This document shows positions 1,926 to 55,902 of a stretch of 64,000 nucleotides of DNA, piece after piece. The position numbers and the translations under genes are program-made. Source of the stretch: Pseudomonadota bacterium (GTDB taxonomy: Bacteria; Pseudomonadota; Gammaproteobacteria; Xanthomonadales; SZUA-38). Each line of letters opens with the position of its first letter. Positions within the stretch are counted from its first letter, which is position 1. The stretch is taken from positions 62,001-126,000 of the forward strand of contig JBCCCR010000011.1 in assembly GCA_039033415.1 (NCBI GenBank), read 5' to 3'. The notes beneath the pieces were generated by a model. The model saw only the letters and a program-made list of their open reading frames with translations, was not told the DNA's origin and ran no database searches.

Positions 1926-2979
1926 CGGACTGACCAAGCTGCTGGCGGACTGCGCTCGCGACCTCGCTGGTGCTGAGCGTGCCGCCAACGTCCGCGGTGG
2001 TTTGCTTCGCGGCGATACAGCGGCTGACGGCCGCGCGGAGCTCGTCCGCGAGGTCGGCCCGCTGAACGTCGCGCTCGAGCCACAGCGCGGCGCTGAGCAT
2101 GGTGCCCATCGGGTTGGCTTTGCCAAGACCTGCGATGTCCGGCGCTGAACCGTGGATGGGTTCGTACAGGCCAGGGCCATCAGCCGCCAGCGATGCAGAG
2201 GGCAATACGCCGAGGGAGCCCGCCACCGCGGCGGTCTCGTCGGTCAGGATGTCGCCGAACATGTTCTCCGTGACCATCACGTCAAAAAACGCAGGGCGGG
2301 TCACCAGCGTCATGGCGGCCGCGTCGACGAGCATGGTGTCAAACGTGAGGTCCGGATACTCGTCGCCAACGATGGCGGTCGTCAGCGAGCGCCAGAGTCG
2401 GGAGGTTGCCAGCACGTTGGCCTTGTCGACCAAAGTCAGGTGGCCGCGGCGCTGACGCGCCAGGTCACCGGCCAGGCGAACAACCCGCTCGATCTCGCCG
2501 GCGTGATAGCTGCAGAGGTCCGAGGCAGACTGGCTGCCCTCCGTTTTCTCGCCGAAGTAGATGCCGCCGGTCAGCTCGCGCACGACCAGCAGGTCGACGC
2601 CCTCAAGCCGATCTGGCTTGAGCGGACTGGCGTCAGCCAGAGCGGGCTCCATGCGGGTGGGTCTTAGGTTCGCGAAAACCTCCATCCCCTGGCGCAGCCG
2701 CAGCAGACCCTGCTCAGGCCTGACGCTGGCGGTGGGGTCGTCCCACTTCGGTCCGCCCACCGCGCCGAGAAGGACACCGTGGCTTTCGATGCAGGCCTTA
2801 AGCGTTGCCGCCGGCAGGGGATCGCCCGTTTCGTCGATCGCCGCGCCGCCGATCAGATGGCGGTCCACCGCCAGCTCCAGCCCGTTGCCGTCAGCCAGCG
2901 CGCTTAACACCTCGATGGTCGCATCGACGACCTCCGGCCCGATACCGTCACCCGGCAGCGCAACCAGCCTGACGGTCAT
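1918..2979 (-). CDS. leuB: 3-isopropylmalate dehydrogenase
   Basis: Oxidatively decarboxylates 3-isopropylmalate to 2-oxoisocaproate with NAD, the third leucine-specific step. The 353-residue protein opens MTVRLVALPGDGIGPEV and carries the substrate-binding LRPTR segment, the metal-binding DAAAMTLV region and the nucleotide-binding HGSAPDIAGLGKANPMG segment near the C-terminus, as in decarboxylating dehydrogenases of this family. The open frame extends 77 codons further upstream, but those codons are leuD read out of frame. The ATG at 2979 overlaps the leuD stop as ATGA, so translation is probably coupled. The 3' end overlaps the ilvA start. Confidence 0.96.
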   Translation of the reverse strand: MTVRLVALPGDGIGPEVVDATIEVLSALADGNGLELAVDRHLIGGAAIDETGDPLPAATLKACIESHGVLLGAVGGPKWDDPTASVRPEQGLLRLRQGMEVFANLRPTRMEPALADASPLKPDRLEGVDLLVVRELTGGIYFGEKTEGSQSASDLCSYHAGEIERVVRLAGDLARQRRGHLTLVDKANVLATSRLWRSLTTAIVGDEYPDLTFDTMLVDAAAMTLVTRPAFFDVMVTENMFGDILTDETAAVAGSLGVLPSASLAADGPGLYEPIHGSAPDIAGLGKANPMGTMLSAALWLERDVQRADLADELRAAVSRCIAAKQTTADVGGTLSTSEVASAVRQQLGQSGG

Positions 2980-3548
2980 GCGCGCTCGCTCTCGAAACGG
3001 CTGATGGCGGCGTCCTGCTCCAGCAGAAAGCCAAGCGCGTCGACGCCGTTCAAAAAGCAGTGCTGCGCAAAACCGTCCAGCGGGAACGTTTCGACGTGAG
3101 GGCCAGCCTCGATCCGTCGCCGCTCGACGTCGATCATCACCTCTGCACCCGGGTTGGCCAGCAGCCACCGGTGCAGCTCTTCGGATACCACCACCGGCAG
3201 CAGACCGCACTTCTGGGAGTTAGAGGAAAAGATATCAGCGAGCTTGCTGGAAACCACAGCCTTGAAGCCGAAGTCGCGAATGGCCCAGGGCGCGTGTTCT
3301 CGCGACGAGCCACAGCCGAAGTTGCGCCCGCCGACTAAGATCCCAGCGGTCCGTGCGGCCGGCTGGTTCAGCACAAAATCTTTGCGAGGCTGATCGTTTT
3401 CATCGAAGCGCCAATCCCGGAAAAGGGCGTCGCCAAAACCTTCGGAAGAGGTGGTGGTCAGAAAGCGCCCGGGAATGATTTGGTCGGTGTCGACATTATC
3501 CTGAGGAATCACGACGGTGGTCTCCGCCAGATGGGTGATTTTCTGCAT
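2976..3548 (-). CDS. leuD: 3-isopropylmalate dehydratase small subunit
   Basis: Small (swivel-domain) subunit of isopropylmalate isomerase, which with LeuC interconverts 2- and 3-isopropylmalate. At 190 residues it has the usual length. Signature segments are 'IPQDNVDTDQIIPGRFL' near the N-terminus and GGRNFGCGSSREHAPWAI in the middle, the substrate-binding loop of the aconitase-family small domain. The start ATG shares one base with the leuC stop (TGATG) and the stop overlaps leuB (ATGA), so leuC-leuD-leuB form a translationally linked block. Confidence 0.96.
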   Translation of the reverse strand: MQKITHLAETTVVIPQDNVDTDQIIPGRFLTTTSSEGFGDALFRDWRFDENDQPRKDFVLNQPAARTAGILVGGRNFGCGSSREHAPWAIRDFGFKAVVSSKLADIFSSNSQKCGLLPVVVSEELHRWLLANPGAEVMIDVERRRIEAGPHVETFPLDGFAQHCFLNGVDALGFLLEQDAAISRFESERA

Positions 3549-4957
3549 CAGGCCGCCTCGCTGGTGTTGATCCGCGGATCGGCGACACAGCCGGCGACCG
3601 CTGCCGCCGCCGCCGCCGCGGGGCTGGCGAGCAGGGTTCGGGAGCCAGGACCTTGGCGCCCCTCAAAATTGCGGTTGCTGGTGCTGATCGCGAGCGCGCC
3701 ATCCGGCACGATGTCGCCGTTCATGGACAGGCACATGGAGCAGCCGGGTAAGCGCCACTGAGCGCCGGCATCGATGAATATCTGATGCAGGCCCTCCTTC
3801 TCGGCGGCCCGATACACCTGTTCCGAACCCGGCACCACCAGCATGGTGACTTCGGGATGGACCTTGCGTCCCTTCAGCTGCGCTGCGGCTGCCCGCAGAT
3901 CGGAGATCCGGGAATTGGTGCAGCTCCCGACAAAGACCACGTTGACCTTGGTACCGATCATCGACTGGCCGGCGTCCAGCCCCATGTACTCCAGCGCCTT
4001 CTCCTCCGACGCGTCGGCCGGCGAGGGGATTGCTTCGGTGATGGGGACCACCATCCCGGGGTGTGTGCCGTAGGTGATGGTCGGCGCGATATCGGCAGCA
4101 TCGATCTTCACCTCGCGGTCGAACGTCGCGCCCTCGTCGCTGCGCAGGGTTTGCCAGTCTTTCACCGCTGCATCAAACGCCTCACCCTCGGGGCTCAGCG
4201 GCCGACCGCGCAGGTAATCGAAGGTTTTCTGGTCGGGCGCGATCATGCCGGCCCGCGCACCGGCTTCGATGCTCATGTTGCAGACGGTCATGCGCTGCTC
4301 CATGTCCAGGCCCTCGATGGTGCTGCCGGCATACTCGATGACGTGACCGGTACCACCGCTGACGCCGATGGTGCCGATGATATGGAGGATCAGATCTTTG
4401 GCCGTCACGCCGGCGCCGAGCTCGCCGTCGATGGTGATCCGCATCGACTTGGGCTTGCGCTGCAGCACGCACTGGGTTGCCAGGACATGGCCAACCTCGG
4501 TGGCACCGATGCCGAAGGCCAGTGCCCCGAACGCGCCGTGTGTGCTGGTGTGGCTGTCGCCGCAGACAATGGTTTTTCCCGGACTCGTGGCACCCAGCTC
4601 CGGCCCGATCACGTGCACGATGCCGCGATAGTCGCTGTCCCAGTCGTGAAGGGTGATCCCGAAGTCGCGGCAGTTTTCGCGCAGCGTGGCGACCTGGGTC
4701 CGAGCCTGCTCGGTCACGTAGGGGCGCCGCCCGTCCCGGGCCGGCAGCGTTGGGGTCGAGTGATCGATGGTGGCGAGCGTCAAGTCCGGTCGACGCACTT
4801 TCAGGCCACGTTCGCGCAGCATGGCGAAGGCCTGCGGGGAAGTCACCTCATGGGTCAGGTGCAGATCGATAAAGAGCACCCCCGGGGTCGCCGGCGTCTC
4901 GCTGACAACCTCATGGGCTGCCCAGATCTTTTCAAACAGAGACTGCGGACTGGCCAT
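3548..4957 (-). CDS. leuC: 3-isopropylmalate dehydratase large subunit
   Basis: Catalytic large subunit of isopropylmalate isomerase, an aconitase-family [4Fe-4S] enzyme. From ATG 4957 it is 469 residues. The cluster ligands are C346 (GSCTNSR), C406 and C409 (GCSMC), and [14 protein letters not shown] at 131-144 is the family active-site segment. An in-frame codon 11 residues upstream is possible, but [12 protein letters not shown] matches the family N-terminus. The gene begins inside the last 26 bases of ilvE, so the upstream gene must be read through to reach it. Confidence 0.96.
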
Positions 4958-5903
4958 GAACGGCGGACTCCTTGGTGGGCAGGGTTTCAAGCCAGCCGTG
5001 CTGGTCAGAGGTTTGTCCGGTGAACAGGCCGAAGAAGAGTTCCTGGAGGCGTTTTGTGATCGGTCCGCGCCCTTCGCTGCGCACGTTGATCCGGTCGACG
5101 GAGCGCACCGGCGTAATCTCGGCGGCGGTCCCGGTGAAAAAGATCTCGTCAGCCAGGTAGAGGAGTTCCCGAGGCATATCCTGCTCGATCACCTCGATGC
5201 CTTCATCAGCCGCGAGCTTGAACACCGTGTCACGGGTGATACCGTAGAGGATCGACGCGCCGGCCGGCGGCGTATAGATCTTGCCGTCGCGAACGACAAA
5301 CAGATTTTCGCCGGAACCCTCGCTCAGCATGCCGTTGCTGCTGAGCGCAATGCCTTCGCTGAAGCCGAGGCGATGAGCCTCTTCGGCGATCAGCTGGCCC
5401 GACAGGTAGTTGCCGCCGGCCTTCGCCATGGCCGGCAGCGTGTTGGGGGCATAGCGCTGCCAGCTGGACATGCAGACGTCCACGCCGTTGGCCATCGCCT
5501 CCTCCCCGAGATAGGCGCCCCACTTAACCGCCGCAACCGCCACCTCAACCGGCGTTTCCGGCGTGGGCGCCACTCCGAGGGTCCCGGCGCCGCGGAACAC
5601 GATCGGCCGGATGTAGGCTGCCGGCAGCTCGTTGGCCGCCACGAGGCCACCGCAGGCGGTCAGCAGCTCATCGACCGTGTACGGCACTGGCATGCGGTAA
5701 ATCTTTGCCGAATCATGCAGCCGCTTGAGGTGGTCGGTGATGCGAAAGCCCCTCGGGCCATCCGGCGTCTCGTAGACCCGAATACCCTCAAAGACACTCG
5801 ACCCGTAATGCAACGCGTGGGTCATTACGTGCACCCGCGCATCGTCCCACGGCATCGTGCTGCCGTTGAACCAGATGAAGGGTGGGGGGGTCATTTTTGG
5901 CAT
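4932..5903 (-). CDS. ilvE: Branched-chain-amino-acid aminotransferase
   Basis: Last step of leucine, isoleucine and valine synthesis: a PLP-dependent fold-type IV transaminase using glutamate. The 323-residue protein has the Schiff-base lysine at K161 in [11 protein letters not shown], the class-IV signature around [18 protein letters not shown], and the N-terminal [14 protein letters not shown] segment. A second Met at residue 4 is an alternative start. It lies third in the operon, separated from leuA by 62 bases, the largest gap in the cluster. The 3' end overlaps leuC by 26 bases. Confidence 0.95.
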
Positions 5904-5965: not shown

Positions 5966-7528
5966 CTAGACGGAGTTTCTCGCGGGCGCGTCTTCTCTCG
6001 GGGTGGTCTGGCGATTCACCTGGCGGCTGGCCGCATTGATGATCTCCAGCAGGCCCTGCGTGGAGGCCGCAATGATATCAGTGCTGACGCCGGTGCCTTT
6101 GAGCTCACTTTCGCCCCACTGCGCCCGAACCTCGGCTTCGCCTTGCGCATCCTCACCCTGCGTCACGCTCCGAACGGCCAGGCCGCTGACCCTCAGAGCC
6201 AGGCCGGTGGCGCGGATCATCGCCTTGAAGGCCGCGTCCAGCGGACCGTCGCCATGGCTCTCCTCGCTGTGGACTTCGCCCGACTCGTGGGTCAGCGACA
6301 CGCTGGCTGACGCCTCCTCTTCGCCGCTGCCGCTCACCACCCGCAGCGCGCTCAGCTGCCAGGGGCCGCTGCGCGCTGCCTGGCCGGTCACGAGGGCCTC
6401 CAGATCGGCATCGTAGATCCGCTTCTTGCGGTCCGCCAGCGACTTAAACGATTTGAAGACGCTCGCCATGTCGACGTTTTCCACGTCAAAGCCCAACGCC
6501 TTGATACGATCGGACACCGCGTGGCGGCCGCTGTGTTTGCCCAGCACGAGGTCAGACTTCTGCACGCCGACGTCTTCGGGCTTCATGATCTCGTAGGTTT
6601 CAGCGTGCTCCAGCACGCCGTGCTGGTGAATGCCGGCTTCGTGCGCGAAGGCGTTGTCTCCGACAATAGCCTTGTTGCGCGCCACGAAGGTGCCGGTAAT
6701 CCCCGCCAGCAGGCGGCTGGCCGGATGGAGTTTGGTGGTGTCGATGTTCGTCTGGCGCCCATAGTGGTCCGCGCGGGTTCGCAGGGCCATGACGATCTCC
6801 TCCAGTGAGGCGTTGCCGGCGCGCTCCCCGATGCCGTTGATCGTGCACTCGATCTGCCCGGCGCCGGCCTCCACCGCCGCCAGGGAGTTGGCCACCGCCA
6901 TTCCGAGGTCGTTGTGGCAGTGGGTGCTGATCACGGCCTGGTCGACATTGGAAACCCCTTGGCGGATCTGGCTGACCAGCCGACCCATTTCCCCGGGCGT
7001 GGTATAGCCTACGGTGTCGGGGATGTTGATTGTGCCCGCACCCGCGGCGATCACCGCCTCGAAGACTTCAATCAGGAATTCCGGTTCGGTGCGGATGGCG
7101 TCCTCGGCCGAAAACTCCACGTCCTCCACCATCTCGCGGGCCATTTTGACCCCGCCAACCGCCTGCGCCAGCACCTGTTCGCGGCTCATCTTCAGCTTGT
7201 GCTCGCGATGGATGGGGCTGGTGGCGATAAACACGTGGATGCGCTTCGCCGGGGCTGGCTCGAGCGCACGCCCGCTGGCTTCGATGTCGCCGGGATTGCA
7301 GCGCGACAGTGAACAGATCGTTGGCCCCTCAATTTCGCTGGCGATCGACCGCACGCAATTGAAGTCGCCGTCGGAGGCTGCGGCAAAACCCGCTTCGATT
7401 ACGTCCACCTTCAGCGCGGCGAGCATCTGAGCCATCCGCAGCTTCTGCGGCTGGGTCATCGAAAAGCCAGGGCTTTGTTCGCCGTCGCGAAGCGTGGTGT
7501 CGAAGATTCGGACAGGATGACTACTCAT
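5966..7528 (-). CDS. leuA: 2-isopropylmalate synthase
   Basis: Condenses acetyl-CoA with 2-oxoisovalerate, the committed step of leucine synthesis. The 520-residue protein has the N-terminal TIM-barrel motif [13 protein letters not shown] (metal ligand D10, catalytic R14) and the metal-binding [11 protein letters not shown] segment. The ~130-residue C-terminal regulatory domain (about 390-510) normally binds leucine for feedback inhibition, so control is likely at both enzyme and attenuator level. It follows ilvM with an ATGA overlap at 7525-7528. Confidence 0.96.
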
Positions 7529-7791
7529 GATGCAATCGCCTCAATCGATGTTGGTTGCCGGGTCTCTGGACCGTTTGTGATGTCGATAACGTCCCGCAGC
7601 TGGCGCAGTGCCTGTGTCAGCGCATTGACCGAGCGGCCCTGGCCGCGAAGCTCGACACTGAGCAGCTGGCCGTCTGTCGCCGGCTCAAGCACCATTCGCT
7701 CGAGGCCGAACCCGTGCCGCTCGATCAGCCAGATCGCCTGTACCGCGCTGCCGCTGATCGATGCCAGGCGCAATTGTAATGCGTGATTCAT
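7525..7791 (-). CDS. ilvM: Acetolactate synthase small (regulatory) subunit, IlvM type
   Basis: An 88-residue single ACT-domain protein of the IlvM class (E. coli IlvM has about 87 residues). The family supports and regulates the acetolactate synthase catalytic subunit. The start ATG at 7791 is chosen because the longer open frame runs back through the attenuator hairpin and its U tract. A short AAGCACCG-free leader of ~40 bases separates it from the attenuator, and GGAGACTGACT lies just before the ATG. It is the first gene of the operon. Unusually no ilvG or ilvB catalytic subunit adjoins it. Confidence 0.88.
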   Translation of the reverse strand: MNHALQLRLASISGSAVQAIWLIERHGFGLERMVLEPATDGQLLSVELRGQGRSVNALTQALRQLRDVIDITNGPETRQPTSIEAIAS

Positions 7792-7831: not shown

Positions 7832-7862
7832 AAAAAAAAAGCCCCGCTTCGGCGGGGCTTTT
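7832..7862 (-). terminator. Intrinsic terminator (attenuator 3:4 hairpin) before ilvM
   Basis: Read on the minus strand, GCCCCGC (7858-7852) pairs with GCGGGGC (7847-7841) around a short CGAA loop and is followed by nine U residues (7840-7832). It lies between the leader peptide and the first structural gene, the position of a biosynthetic attenuator rather than an end-of-operon terminator. Confidence 0.92.
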
Positions 7863-7990
7863 GCTGTTTGAACCGTGTTTGCTGCTCAAAAGCCCCCGCT
7901 ACCGCTTCGCGCGATAATAAGGAGAGCAAGTACAAGCAGCGCGCCGACGACAGCCGGCACCAGATTGGTGGGGCGGGAGGCGGCTTTTGC
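7832..7990 (-). promoter_or_regulatory. Branched-chain amino acid transcription attenuator (1:2:3:4 architecture)
   Basis: Four segments can be placed on the minus-strand RNA. Segment 1 is AAAAGCC plus CCCGC (7988-7982 and 7977-7973), inside the leader ORF just before the Leu/Val/Ile codon run. Segment 2 is GCGGGGGCUUUU (7899-7888), the last leader codons. Segment 3 is AAAAGCCCCGC (7862-7852) and segment 4 is GCGGGGC (7847-7841) plus the U tract. Segments 1:2, 2:3 (one bulged G) and 3:4 are mutually exclusive, as in enterobacterial ilv and leu attenuators. Predicted behaviour: stalling at scarce charged Leu/Val/Ile tRNA frees segment 2 to form the antiterminator 2:3, and otherwise 3:4 terminates. 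Confidence 0.85.
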
Positions 7991-8032
7991 CACCAGCTTT
8001 CGGCGCTGTTTTGCGGGTCGTCGCTGTTTCAT
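7886..8032 (-). CDS. ilvL: Leader peptide of the ilv-leu operon (48 aa)
   Basis: An ATG at 8032 opens a 48-codon frame ending in TGA at 7888-7886, too short for usual gene callers. The N-terminal half is basic (MKQRRPAKQRRK). Codons 24-40 read LVPAVVGALLVLALLII, in which 12 of 17 codons are Leu, Val or Ile, a typical control-codon run. Its last codons are antiterminator segment 2. An in-frame ATG at 8050 is an alternative start. A small single-pass membrane protein would look similar in composition, but the position directly before an attenuator makes a leader peptide much more likely. Confidence 0.82.
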   Translation of the reverse strand: MKQRRPAKQRRKLVAKAASRPTNLVPAVVGALLVLALLIIARSGSGGF

Positions 8033-8038
8033 CCCTCG

Positions 8039-8067
8039 ATCCTCTGCCATGCTTTCTTTGGTGTCAA
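8039..8067 (-). promoter_or_regulatory. Candidate sigma-70 promoter of the ilv-leu operon
   Basis: On the minus strand a perfect -35 TTGACA (8067-8062) is followed after exactly 17 bases by GAGGAT (8044-8039), a weak -10. Transcription would start close to 8032, at the leader ATG itself, implying a leaderless or nearly leaderless leader mRNA. The -35 is convincing and the -10 is not. Confidence 0.5.
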
Positions 8068-17109: not shown

Positions 17110-17635
17110 CAAACAACTGCCGACGTGGTTTGACGAACGGATTGAAGCCTGGCTCGACGACGAGCTGAGCGGCAGCGAGGCGGCGCTGTTCGAGGCCCGG
17201 CTCGCCACCGATCCACTGCTCGAGCGTGAGGTTGAACGCGCGACTCGGCTCGGCGCTCAGCTCCAAGACCTGCCTGCTCTTCAGGCGCCCAGCTCGCTGA
17301 GCCGGAACGTCATGGAGATCACCGGCAACACGTTTGCGCTGCCCAAGCTCGCGTTCCCTGCCTGGGGCTGGTCGCTCGGCGGTGCCTGCGCTGCGGCGCT
17401 GGCACTGATGGTCACGCTGGGCCCCGGGGTTCTCCCCGGGGGTGAGCCGGAGCTTCAGCCGACGGCACAGGAGCTGGCCAAGGCCCGAGCGGATCTGGCG
17501 CTGGCGCTGGGCTATGTGGATCAGGCTGGAGACATGGCGGCCCGTCAGCTGGGCGGCCAGGCGGGCGCGCTGACGGTGCGGGGTCTGCTGGAGCCGGCCC
17601 GGCGACTGAACAGTGACGGTGCCGACACGATATGA
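17102..17635 (+). CDS. Putative single-pass anti-sigma factor
   Basis: A 177-residue protein whose N-terminal ~75 residues form an anti-sigma-like helical domain (WFDERIEAWLDDELSGSEAALFEARLATDP...). One membrane segment (~90-110, WGWSLGGACAAALALMVTL) and a ~65-residue outer part follow. No zinc-binding HxxxCxxC motif is present. Position and topology indicate the partner of the sigma factor at 16606. The ATG at 17102 lies inside the sigma gene. A GTG-frame start 15 bases earlier is less likely. The 3' end overlaps the DUF4252 gene (ATGA). Confidence 0.82.
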   Translation: MTDKQLPTWFDERIEAWLDDELSGSEAALFEARLATDPLLEREVERATRLGAQLQDLPALQAPSSLSRNVMEITGNTFALPKLAFPAWGWSLGGACAAALALMVTLGPGVLPGGEPELQPTAQELAKARADLALALGYVDQAGDMAARQLGGQAGALTVRGLLEPARRLNSDGADTI

Positions 17636-18162
17636 GGCGACTGGCCAAACTACTGCTGACGGCCCTGCTGCTCGCGCCGCTGGCCGCGGTTGCCCAGGGC
17701 TTGACCGACCATCCGGGATTTGTCGACTTTGGTGACCTCGACGGGATCGCCGACGTTGAGCCCACGGTCGAGGTGTCGCTCGGGCCTGCGCTGCTCGGGT
17801 TTCTGCGCAAAACGGTTGCCAACGAGGACCCGGAACTCTCCAGCACGCTGGGCAAGCTTCGCGGTATCGAGCTCCGGGTCTTCGAACTGCGCGCCGACCA
17901 GCTCGACAACGCCCGCGATCAGGCGCTGTCGATTTCCAAACGTCTGAAGTCGGCAGACTGGGAGCCGGCGCTCCGCGTTCGCGGCGGCGATGGGACGGTC
18001 CACATGTTTATGAAAACCCGCGACGAGATCGTAGAGGGCATGGTGGTGATGATCGTGGAATCAGGCGGCGACGCGGTGTTTCTGAACATTGTCGGTGAGA
18101 TCGATCCGGAGCAGCTCGGCAGCGTTGCCAGTCGCTTCGGCGTTGACCTGGACGACCTATAA
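17632..18162 (+). CDS. DUF4252 exported protein
   Basis: A 176-residue protein with a signal peptide (RRLAKLLLTALLLAPLAAVAQ, cleavage near residue 21) and a domain of the DUF4252 type (V-E-V-SLG-LL-FLRK ... GIELRVFEL ... FMKTRDEIVEGMVVMIVE). DUF4252 proteins commonly sit behind ECF sigma/anti-sigma pairs in Xanthomonadales and Bacteroidetes, with unknown function. Its ATG overlaps the anti-sigma stop. It may be a periplasmic cofactor or output of the sigma circuit, which is inference from position. Confidence 0.87.
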   Translation: MRRLAKLLLTALLLAPLAAVAQGLTDHPGFVDFGDLDGIADVEPTVEVSLGPALLGFLRKTVANEDPELSSTLGKLRGIELRVFELRADQLDNARDQALSISKRLKSADWEPALRVRGGDGTVHMFMKTRDEIVEGMVVMIVESGGDAVFLNIVGEIDPEQLGSVASRFGVDLDDL

Positions 18163-18166
18163 CGCA

Positions 18167-18358
18167 CTACTCCGGCGTCTTGCCTCGTCGCGCTGGCCGA
18201 CTGGGCTGCCGGCTGCGGTCCGAAACCCCTGGTCGAGGCGATTCGCAGAGAGACCAGCGAAAGCACGGGTGGTCCACCTGGTAGGGGACAAGCTGCCAGT
18301 GATTCGGCAGATTCGGGCTCTCGATCAGATCGTCCGTAGCGGGTACAAACTGCAGCAT
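18167..18358 (-). CDS. Possible small protein, 63 aa, divergent from hemL
   Basis: An ATG at 18358 preceded by AGGAGG (18372-18367) with an 8-base spacing, one of the best ribosome-binding sites in the window, opens a 63-codon frame. The product begins MLQFVPATDDLIESPNLP and ends in an Arg/Ser/Pro-rich tail, with two Cys in the middle. No family is recognised. A TTG 6 bases upstream is a poorer start. The unusually good Shine-Dalgarno site is the main support. The rest of 18163-18539 holds only the hemL upstream region. Confidence 0.5.
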   Translation of the reverse strand: MLQFVPATDDLIESPNLPNHWQLVPYQVDHPCFRWSLCESPRPGVSDRSRQPSRPARRGKTPE

Positions 18359-18487
18359 CAGCAAATCCTCCTTGATGAATGAGCCTCCGTTTTACCGGGG
18401 CGCAATGGCCGGCTCGTAACGTCGTTCTGACATTTTTCTGGCAACAGATATCGCTGCAGCTCCGGGTTCTGCTAATCTCGCCGCTGG

Positions 18488-18507
18488 GCGCGCGCTCCGG
18501 CGCGCGC
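18488..18507. promoter_or_regulatory. GC-only hairpin upstream of hemL
   Basis: GCGCGCGC (18488-18495) and GCGCGCGC (18500-18507) flank a TCCG loop 32 bases before the hemL ATG. It could be the end of an upstream leader RNA or a structure affecting hemL translation. There is no U tract. Confidence 0.35.
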
Positions 18508-18539
18508 AGTCTCCAGAATTTCGAATACTGAGGTAGCTA

Positions 18540-55690: not shown

Positions 55691-55698
55691 AAGTGAGT

Positions 55699-55809
55699 AC
55701 TCATTGAGACCGGCTGAGGGAAAGGCCCTTTGAAGCCGGGGCAACCTACGAACCTAACCCGTTCGGAAAGGTGCCAAATCCTGCGGAACCTAAGTTCCGG
55801 GAAATGAGT
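55699..55809 (+). ncRNA. SAM-I (S-box) riboswitch upstream of metB
   Basis: P1 is formed by ACTCATT (55699-55705) and AATGAGT (55803-55809). Between them lie the conserved S-box blocks: GAGACCGGC, TGAGGGAAAGGCCC, TTGAAGCCGGGGCAACC, then GGTGCCAAATCCTGC and a GGAACC/GGTTCC-like P4 region closing with GGGAAATGAG. After the aptamer a second AATGAGT (55871-55877) repeats the P1 3' strand, and GTCGGT (55810-55815) can pair with ACCGAC (55879-55884) next to the ribosome site GGAG (55889-55892). There is no terminator, so control is probably of translation start. High SAM should switch metB off. Confidence 0.9.
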
Positions 55810-55902
55810 GTCGGTAAAAGCGGTAGTGCTAAGGACCCGACGCCCACCTGAAGCCTGACGGCCCAGGACCAATGAGTCACCGACTAACGGAGAACATTGG
55901 AA

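Follow-up and report, generated by a model that had tools for sequence, protein, structure and literature searches.

The branched-chain amino acid operon in the window (the whole stretch of 64,000 nucleotides that was analysed) is preceded by an element that, judged from its sequence, is most likely a leaderless leader-peptide attenuator, dependent on translation and read from a transcript with AUG at its 5' end. On the minus strand, it runs from a TTGACA box (8067-8062) and a GAGGAT box (8044-8039) through the ATG at 8032 and the leader ORF, which ends in a TGA stop at 7886, to a hairpin (7862-7837), a run of nine U (7840-7832) and the genes of the operon. The leader ORF (7886-8032) has 48 codons, as do its counterparts in G001 and G003, and codons 24-40 (7913-7963) contain 12 Leu, Val or Ile (L/I/V) codons in a stretch of 17. 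Both the coordinates and the count had been put forward in an earlier note on this DNA and are borne out by the sequence. Attenuation by a leader peptide, as proposed there, is strongly supported, with the leader being kept before branched-chain genes in relatives and with both the antiterminator (2:3) and the terminator (3:4) pairings covarying. What the note missed is the probable leaderless layout, as well as the operon in the window being, as its distribution suggests, a shortened form of a longer operon of sister families.

Relatives were collected with a LeuA search of 101 genomes, 99 of which matched at a loose cut-off and 69 strongly (E <= 1.4e-82). Sixty-three of the 69 were taken in, while G033, G061, G072, G075, G094 and G099 were left out. 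All 63 loci of the order contain leuA; the other branched-chain loci of the window's own genome are L116-L118. A strict scan for an L/I/V-rich ORF with a terminator before a branched-chain gene identified the element in 39 of the 63 loci, after four of its 43 matches had been set aside (three antisense copies of a leader's own terminator and one without a branched-chain gene behind it). A blind scan, based on the promoter spacing, an ATG ORF of 12-110 codons and a terminator, ignored amino-acid content and yielded a leader before branched-chain genes in 53 of the 63 loci, all 53 of these leaders being L/I/V-rich. By family, such leaders occur in 3/3 loci of f1, 12/14 of f2, 6/6 of f4, 1/1 of f5, 2/2 of f6, 13/14 of f7, 4/4 of f9, 0/1 of f10, 1/6 of f11 and 11/12 of f12, counts which do not represent independent observations. 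Applied to both strands of L115-L180, the blind scan gave 54 matches with a branched-chain gene behind each; in 60 shuffled windows, it gave eight matches. The signature of a promoter locked to an ATG, followed by a terminator, can detect unannotated leader peptides without recourse to amino-acid content.

Dyella, Lysobacter, Thermomonas, Steroidobacteraceae and Woeseiaceae are among the named records that carry such a leader. The full signature is absent from 10 of the 63 loci, two of them at contig edges and five in f11. Relatives keeping the terminator without an L/I/V-rich ORF in front of it would have counted against the earlier note. Most relatives do keep the ORF, but f11 shows the full signature in a single locus out of six, and L127 and L133 retain a terminator before leuA without a leader recognisable by the scans. 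Separately, genome G040 has distinct leu and ilv operons, each apparently with its own leader of this layout (L145, 8360-8506, minus strand).

The leaderless layout is suggested by the position of the promoter. The first T of the -35 box TTGACA (8062-8067) lies 35 nt upstream of the A of the leader ATG, and a standard sigma-70 promoter with its -35 box at this distance starts at approximately that A. After a 17-nt spacer follows the -10-like box GAGGAT (8039-8044), 6 nt before the ATG, which matches TATAAT poorly and whose GAGG also resembles a Shine-Dalgarno sequence. Among relatives, 38 of 39 leaders, L142 being the exception, have TTGAC[A/T] at 35-38 nt before the ATG, compared to one of 761 control ORFs from these loci; for TTGACN at this distance, the count is two of 497 non-overlapping ORFs. 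No other position is repeated in the histogram of -35 spacings, and the best -10-like box of the relatives ends 4-8 nt before the ATG. Because of this spacing, the transcript is predicted to begin at the A of the leader AUG (8032). A start downstream of 7886, which the earlier note had named as evidence against its proposal, is not what the promoter spacing predicts.

On average, the first 36 nt of the leaders are rich in A and C (0.63 vs 0.47) and the first 45 nt are weakly folded (-5.5 vs -9.3 kcal/mol), and 34 of 38 leaders have C or T directly before the ATG. The window is not the cleanest case, having a poor -10 box (GAGGAT), a G before the ATG, a fold of -9.7 kcal/mol in its first 45 nt and a segment 2 which, as scored, starts 16 nt past the last L/I/V codon.

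An ordinary attenuator with a 5' leader would need another promoter, with the ribosome binding to the GAGG before 8032 and the TTGACA being secondary or unrelated. This GAGG (8044-8041) is indeed well spaced for the ATG of the window, and 5' leaders do precede E. coli leader ORFs whose Shine-Dalgarno matches are just as weak. However, this GAGG falls within the -10-like box and is missing from most relatives, while the TTGACA spacing is fixed in the relatives mentioned above, making such a leadered arrangement unlikely. The absence of a Shine-Dalgarno sequence was dropped as evidence for leaderless transcription: an anti-Shine-Dalgarno match of at least 4 nt is present in 10 of the 53 leaders and missing in 43, but the four E. 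coli leaders reach no higher values (3, 3, 3 and 4 nt).

Translation of the ORF is supported by its codon content across relatives. A 12-codon stretch with at least six L/I/V codons occurs in all 53 leaders of the order and in 5.4% of 6424 control ORFs. This enrichment is frame-specific, with a mean of 9.0 in frame compared to 3.7 (maximum 8) and 1.6 in the other frames, in leaders which had been picked without using amino-acid content. Within the control run, rare synonyms prevail: GTA makes up 64.1% of 92 Val codons (vs 6.3%) and ATT 85.5% of 69 Ile codons (vs 16.2%), figures that are confounded by the relatedness of the leaders and by the possible pairing of these codons as segment 1. The leaders of G000 and G001 differ by eight substitutions in 147 nt without third-position bias (five codons non-synonymous, three synonymous). 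Since this codon-substitution comparison gave no support, the evidence for translation is taken from the frame-specific content. The first half of the leader varies among relatives and the L/I/V run near its end is kept, as in G003, which belongs to the same family as the window (...SLLVLVLLIIVSRLSGVG).

The same observations bear on two readings in which the ORF is no sensor. It might be the gene of a small membrane protein with one hydrophobic helix, placed in front of a genuine terminator and antiterminator, as NLVPAVVGALLVLALLIIA resembles a transmembrane segment. This is highly improbable given the variable N-terminal half, the lack of any family match for the peptide in Pfam (E <= 1) or NCBIfam (E <= 0.001), and hydrophobic residues that are Leu, Val and Ile in rare synonyms such as GTA and ATT, with the confounding by pairing and relatedness noted above. 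Alternatively, the ORF might be fortuitous and the terminator factor-dependent or regulated by a protein (e.g. an Lrp- or tRNA-type sensor). Nothing specific speaks for this reading, the Rfam matches being sub-threshold only, and the frame-specific enrichment in all 53 leaders argues against it, leaving it with a minimal probability. The locus was rejected as a member of any Rfam family, with no family reaching its cut-off (RF00512, Leu_leader, scores 26.1 bits against a gathering cut-off of 50). Elsewhere in the window, a SAM riboswitch is present at 55698-55810 on the plus strand (RF00162, 92.8 bits).

Turning to the switch of the proposed leaderless attenuator, the hairpin consists of the arms 7862-7852 and 7847-7837 with a 4-nt loop, followed by nine T (7840-7832). 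Segment 3 (7852-7862) has two alternative partners: its own 3' arm, segment 4 (7837-7847), and segment 2 (7888-7900, AGCGGGGGCUUUU) at the end of the leader ORF. Segment 2 forms the 5' arm of the antiterminator and extends over the final codons of the leader and the first base of its stop. The arrangement described earlier, with the leader ORF running into the antiterminator segment ahead of a hairpin and nine U, is present in the sequence. Folded alone, the 3:4 hairpin reaches -19.4 kcal/mol and the antiterminator stretch -19.9 kcal/mol, and the whole leader folds with a z of -2.52 relative to shuffled sequences. An ORF with at least eight L/I/V codons in 12, followed within 110 nt by a hairpin with a T run, was encountered once in 40 dinucleotide-shuffled windows (both strands) and twice in the real window, namely at the leader (8032, minus strand) and at about 61838 (plus strand), the latter being taken for chance.

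Changes in segment 3 are often matched in segment 2: GGTGCGGG occurs with CCCGCACC in many relatives, GTAGCGGG with CCCGCTAC in f9 and GGGGCTTT with AAAGCCCC in the genus of the window. Among 26 distinct arms, the own 2:3 pairing exceeds all of 20000 swaps. In alignment A2, which holds 51 of the 53 leaders (L124 was left out and L131 is a duplicate), double-change cells number 12 for 2:3 (2.7 when shuffled) and 25 for 3:4 (5.9 when shuffled), neither value being reached in 500 shuffles, although such double-change covariation may be inflated by kinship. The covariation score of 2:3 is likewise reached by 0 of 500 shuffles. By the counts of pairs and pair types in A2, which are less inflated by relatedness, 2:3 is not above shuffles (280/500 and 158/500 reach them), and 3:4 is above them in pairs (1/500) but not in pair types (124/500); the misalignment of segment 2 from the window and from G001 in A2 puts 2:3 at a disadvantage there.

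The third helix of the complete four-segment attenuator claimed by the earlier note fared differently. A possible segment 1 (GCUGCUUG, 7933-7940) can pair with UGAGCAGC (7888-7881) and folds in the window and G001. Across relatives, however, own segments 1 and 2 are no more complementary than swapped ones (p 0.56 and 0.22). On that account, we regard the 1:2 helix as optional. Of the covariation sought for all three helices, that of 2:3 and 3:4 was found and that of 1:2 was not, and a four-segment attenuator was rejected as a conserved feature. The conserved core, as far as the comparison of relatives indicates, is a three-segment switch of a 2:3 antiterminator and a 3:4 terminator. Segment 2 starts 9-12 nt past the last L/I/V codon in 36 of the 53 leaders, a distance which approximates the leading edge of a ribosome stalled at that codon, and a segment 2 placed in the last leader codons would be covered once the ribosome has reached the stop codon.

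In the scheme that we infer for the start of transcription, the stalling of the ribosome and the regulation, RNA polymerase would start at 8032, with the A of the leader AUG as the first RNA nucleotide, and ribosomes would load directly onto the 5' end of the RNA. When charged Leu, Val and Ile tRNAs are ample, the ribosome would reach the stop codon and cover segment 2, allowing the 3:4 terminator to form and transcription to end near 7832. When any of the three charged tRNAs is scarce, the ribosome would stall within codons 24-40, leaving segment 2 free just ahead of it to pair with segment 3, and the polymerase would continue into ilvM-leuA-ilvE-leuCDB-ilvA. One attenuator would thereby be placed over Leu, Ile and Val genes jointly.

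All genes of this operon lie on the minus strand. The first structural gene encodes an IlvM-like ACT-domain protein (7525-7791), followed by leuA (2-isopropylmalate synthase, 5966-7528), ilvE (branched-chain aminotransferase, 4932-5903), leuC (3548-4957), leuD (2976-3548), leuB (1918-2979) and ilvA (threonine ammonia-lyase, 231-2180). The starts of leuC (ATG 4957) and leuB (ATG 2979) are inferred, and the coordinates of ilvA are those of the longest ORF; since its family match begins at about residue 94-100, the true start is expected inside this ORF. IlvA, LeuB, LeuD, LeuC, IlvE and LeuA each score above the curated cut-off of at least one NCBIfam model. The putative identity of IlvM is based on a weak match to PF13710 (ACT_5, 19.2 bits, below the cut-off of 27) and on 39% identity to an ORF of G003 that is placed after an IlvG-type synthase. 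This IlvM-like regulatory subunit is retained in the window although the operon has no IlvG partner for it, whereas G003 has an IlvG-type gene beside its counterpart.

In f5, f7 and f9, the leader heads long operons, with ilvC-ALS-(ilvM)-leuA-ilvE-leuCDB-ilvA in this order in 12 leader-bearing loci. In the eight loci inspected, the 1.8 kb from the leader to the next gene hold a frame of 560-608 residues that is IlvD-like by its ends, and in L179 this frame was confirmed as IlvD. G003 lacks ilvC at this place and keeps the IlvG-type synthase (PRK08978, 847.6 bits) before ilvM. In the genus of the window, the operon begins at ilvM, and the IlvC and acetolactate synthase of the window genome are located elsewhere, without such a leader. 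Because leaders of sister families head longer operons while this genus starts at ilvM, the operon in the window is read as a shortened form of a larger pathway operon.

On 80 named loci, the blind scan gave 22 matches. Fourteen of these were counted as preceding a branched-chain gene, with Myxococcales and Mariprofundus/Ghiorsea represented and several being single weak cases, and eight were set aside as not lying before a branched-chain gene or not being L/I/V-rich. In the Myxococcales loci L085 and L090 (about 6212-6340, plus strand), an acetolactate synthase gene is preceded by a terminator and an L/I/V-rich leader whose ATG has TTGACN 38 nt upstream. Possible attenuators, each an L/I/V-rich ORF with a terminator, were also observed before leuA in a Planctomycetota locus (L049, 9794-9919, plus strand) and before an acetolactate synthase gene in a Blastocatellia locus (L074, 12922-13053, plus strand); we know of no attenuators in these phyla. 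A covariance model of the 3' half found the window locus alone below E 0.001 in its own genome and mostly plain terminators beyond the order. Ten of its 30 class-wide loci pass the L/I/V scan (at least 7 of 12), five of these being known members of the order and five lying outside it; the leaderless spacing is seen in one of the outside five, the candidate leader of G464. The L/I/V leaders of G164 and G346, of the same class but outside the order, lack the promoter-ATG spacing. Judging from such loci, the predicted leaderless layout is not universal outside the order.

For other amino acids, a candidate leaderless Phe attenuator was noted in a Steroidobacteraceae MAG (L066), where a 21-codon leader with three Phe (MCMNRLFGLFFTTTQRCGPTA; 17289-17354, plus strand), a TTGACA 36 nt before its ATG and a terminator stand directly before pheA (prephenate dehydratase, 17445-18524). 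The first threshold of the pheA and hisG scans would have missed this leader, and the results given are from a lower one. Together with the blind scan, it revealed no attenuator at 30 pheA loci of the order and, at 29 hisG loci of the order and the window genome's own hisG locus (L185), only two weak His frames that were taken for chance. In the window's own genome, no attenuator was found at the his, thr and trpE loci by the criteria used; six short Trp-containing frames, spread over the his, thr and second trpE-like loci, were likewise taken for chance, as were two GTG frames at the second trpE-like locus. At the loci scanned in the order, no leaderless design was thus apparent in operons for other amino acids.

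In textbook attenuation, the ribosome must start in step with the polymerase, a coordination generally attributed to the 1:2 pause hairpin. A conserved family with an RNA predicted to start at the start codon and a 1:2 helix that is not conserved offers a testable alternative for this synchronisation. A joint reading, to which we give about even chances, is that of a distinct gammaproteobacterial attenuator architecture: leaderless, with some 28 codons of 5' spacer, on average weakly folded, in place of a conserved 1:2 pause helix, and with direct ribosome loading at the 5'-AUG setting the coupling. This architecture would be ancestral in the Xanthomonadales-like order, where it would originally have controlled most of the Leu/Ile/Val pathway as ilvD-C-G-M-leuA-ilvE-leuCDB-ilvA, and would recur in Woeseiaceae, Chromatiales, Mariprofundus/Ghiorsea and Myxococcales and once before pheA.

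The ilvL and leuL attenuators of E. coli belong to the same pathway and likewise comprise control codons, an antiterminator and a terminator. In contrast to the window, E. coli has separate ilv and leu operons according to its annotation, and the nearest TTGACA-like site lies 61 (ilvL) and 63 nt (leuL) before the leader ATG rather than 35 nt. With at most one mismatch, the corresponding range for ilvL, leuL, hisL and thrL is 61-94 nt. A transcribed 5' leader of the ilvL/leuL type, with its -35 box well upstream, is not predicted by the 35-nt spacing of the window. Branched-chain attenuators were reportedly predicted in Xanthomonas by Vitreschak et al. in 2004, and these we take to be probably the same element. 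No report of a leaderless attenuator in Gammaproteobacteria was found in the open-access literature that was searched.

Closer parallels for the layout come from other bacteria. In the ilvBNC attenuator (IlvL) of Corynebacterium glutamicum, transcription starts one nucleotide from the leader start codon (PMC11857589), and a 2000 paper cited therein is titled as describing leader peptide formation without a ribosome binding site. This system is alike in its leader with Ile, Leu and Val codons and its antiterminator/terminator, and unlike in belonging to an Actinobacterium, in its 15-codon leader, its other operon and a 3-hairpin model in which H1 shields initiation. The IlvL, LeuL1/2 and TrpL leaders of Streptomyces lividans, also an Actinobacterium, are described as transcribed leaderless before amino-acid or tRNA-ligase genes (PMC8079986), but have 12-18 codons and in some cases no clear terminator. 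In the trpL attenuator of Sinorhizobium meliloti, the RNA starts at the ATG of the leader ORF (PMC7298713); here, the host is an Alphaproteobacterium, the amino acid is tryptophan and the 14-aa peptide also acts in trans. Leaderless leader peptides are known from Corynebacterium, Streptomyces and the Sinorhizobium trp system, and the element of the window is most likely a gammaproteobacterial case of this kind.
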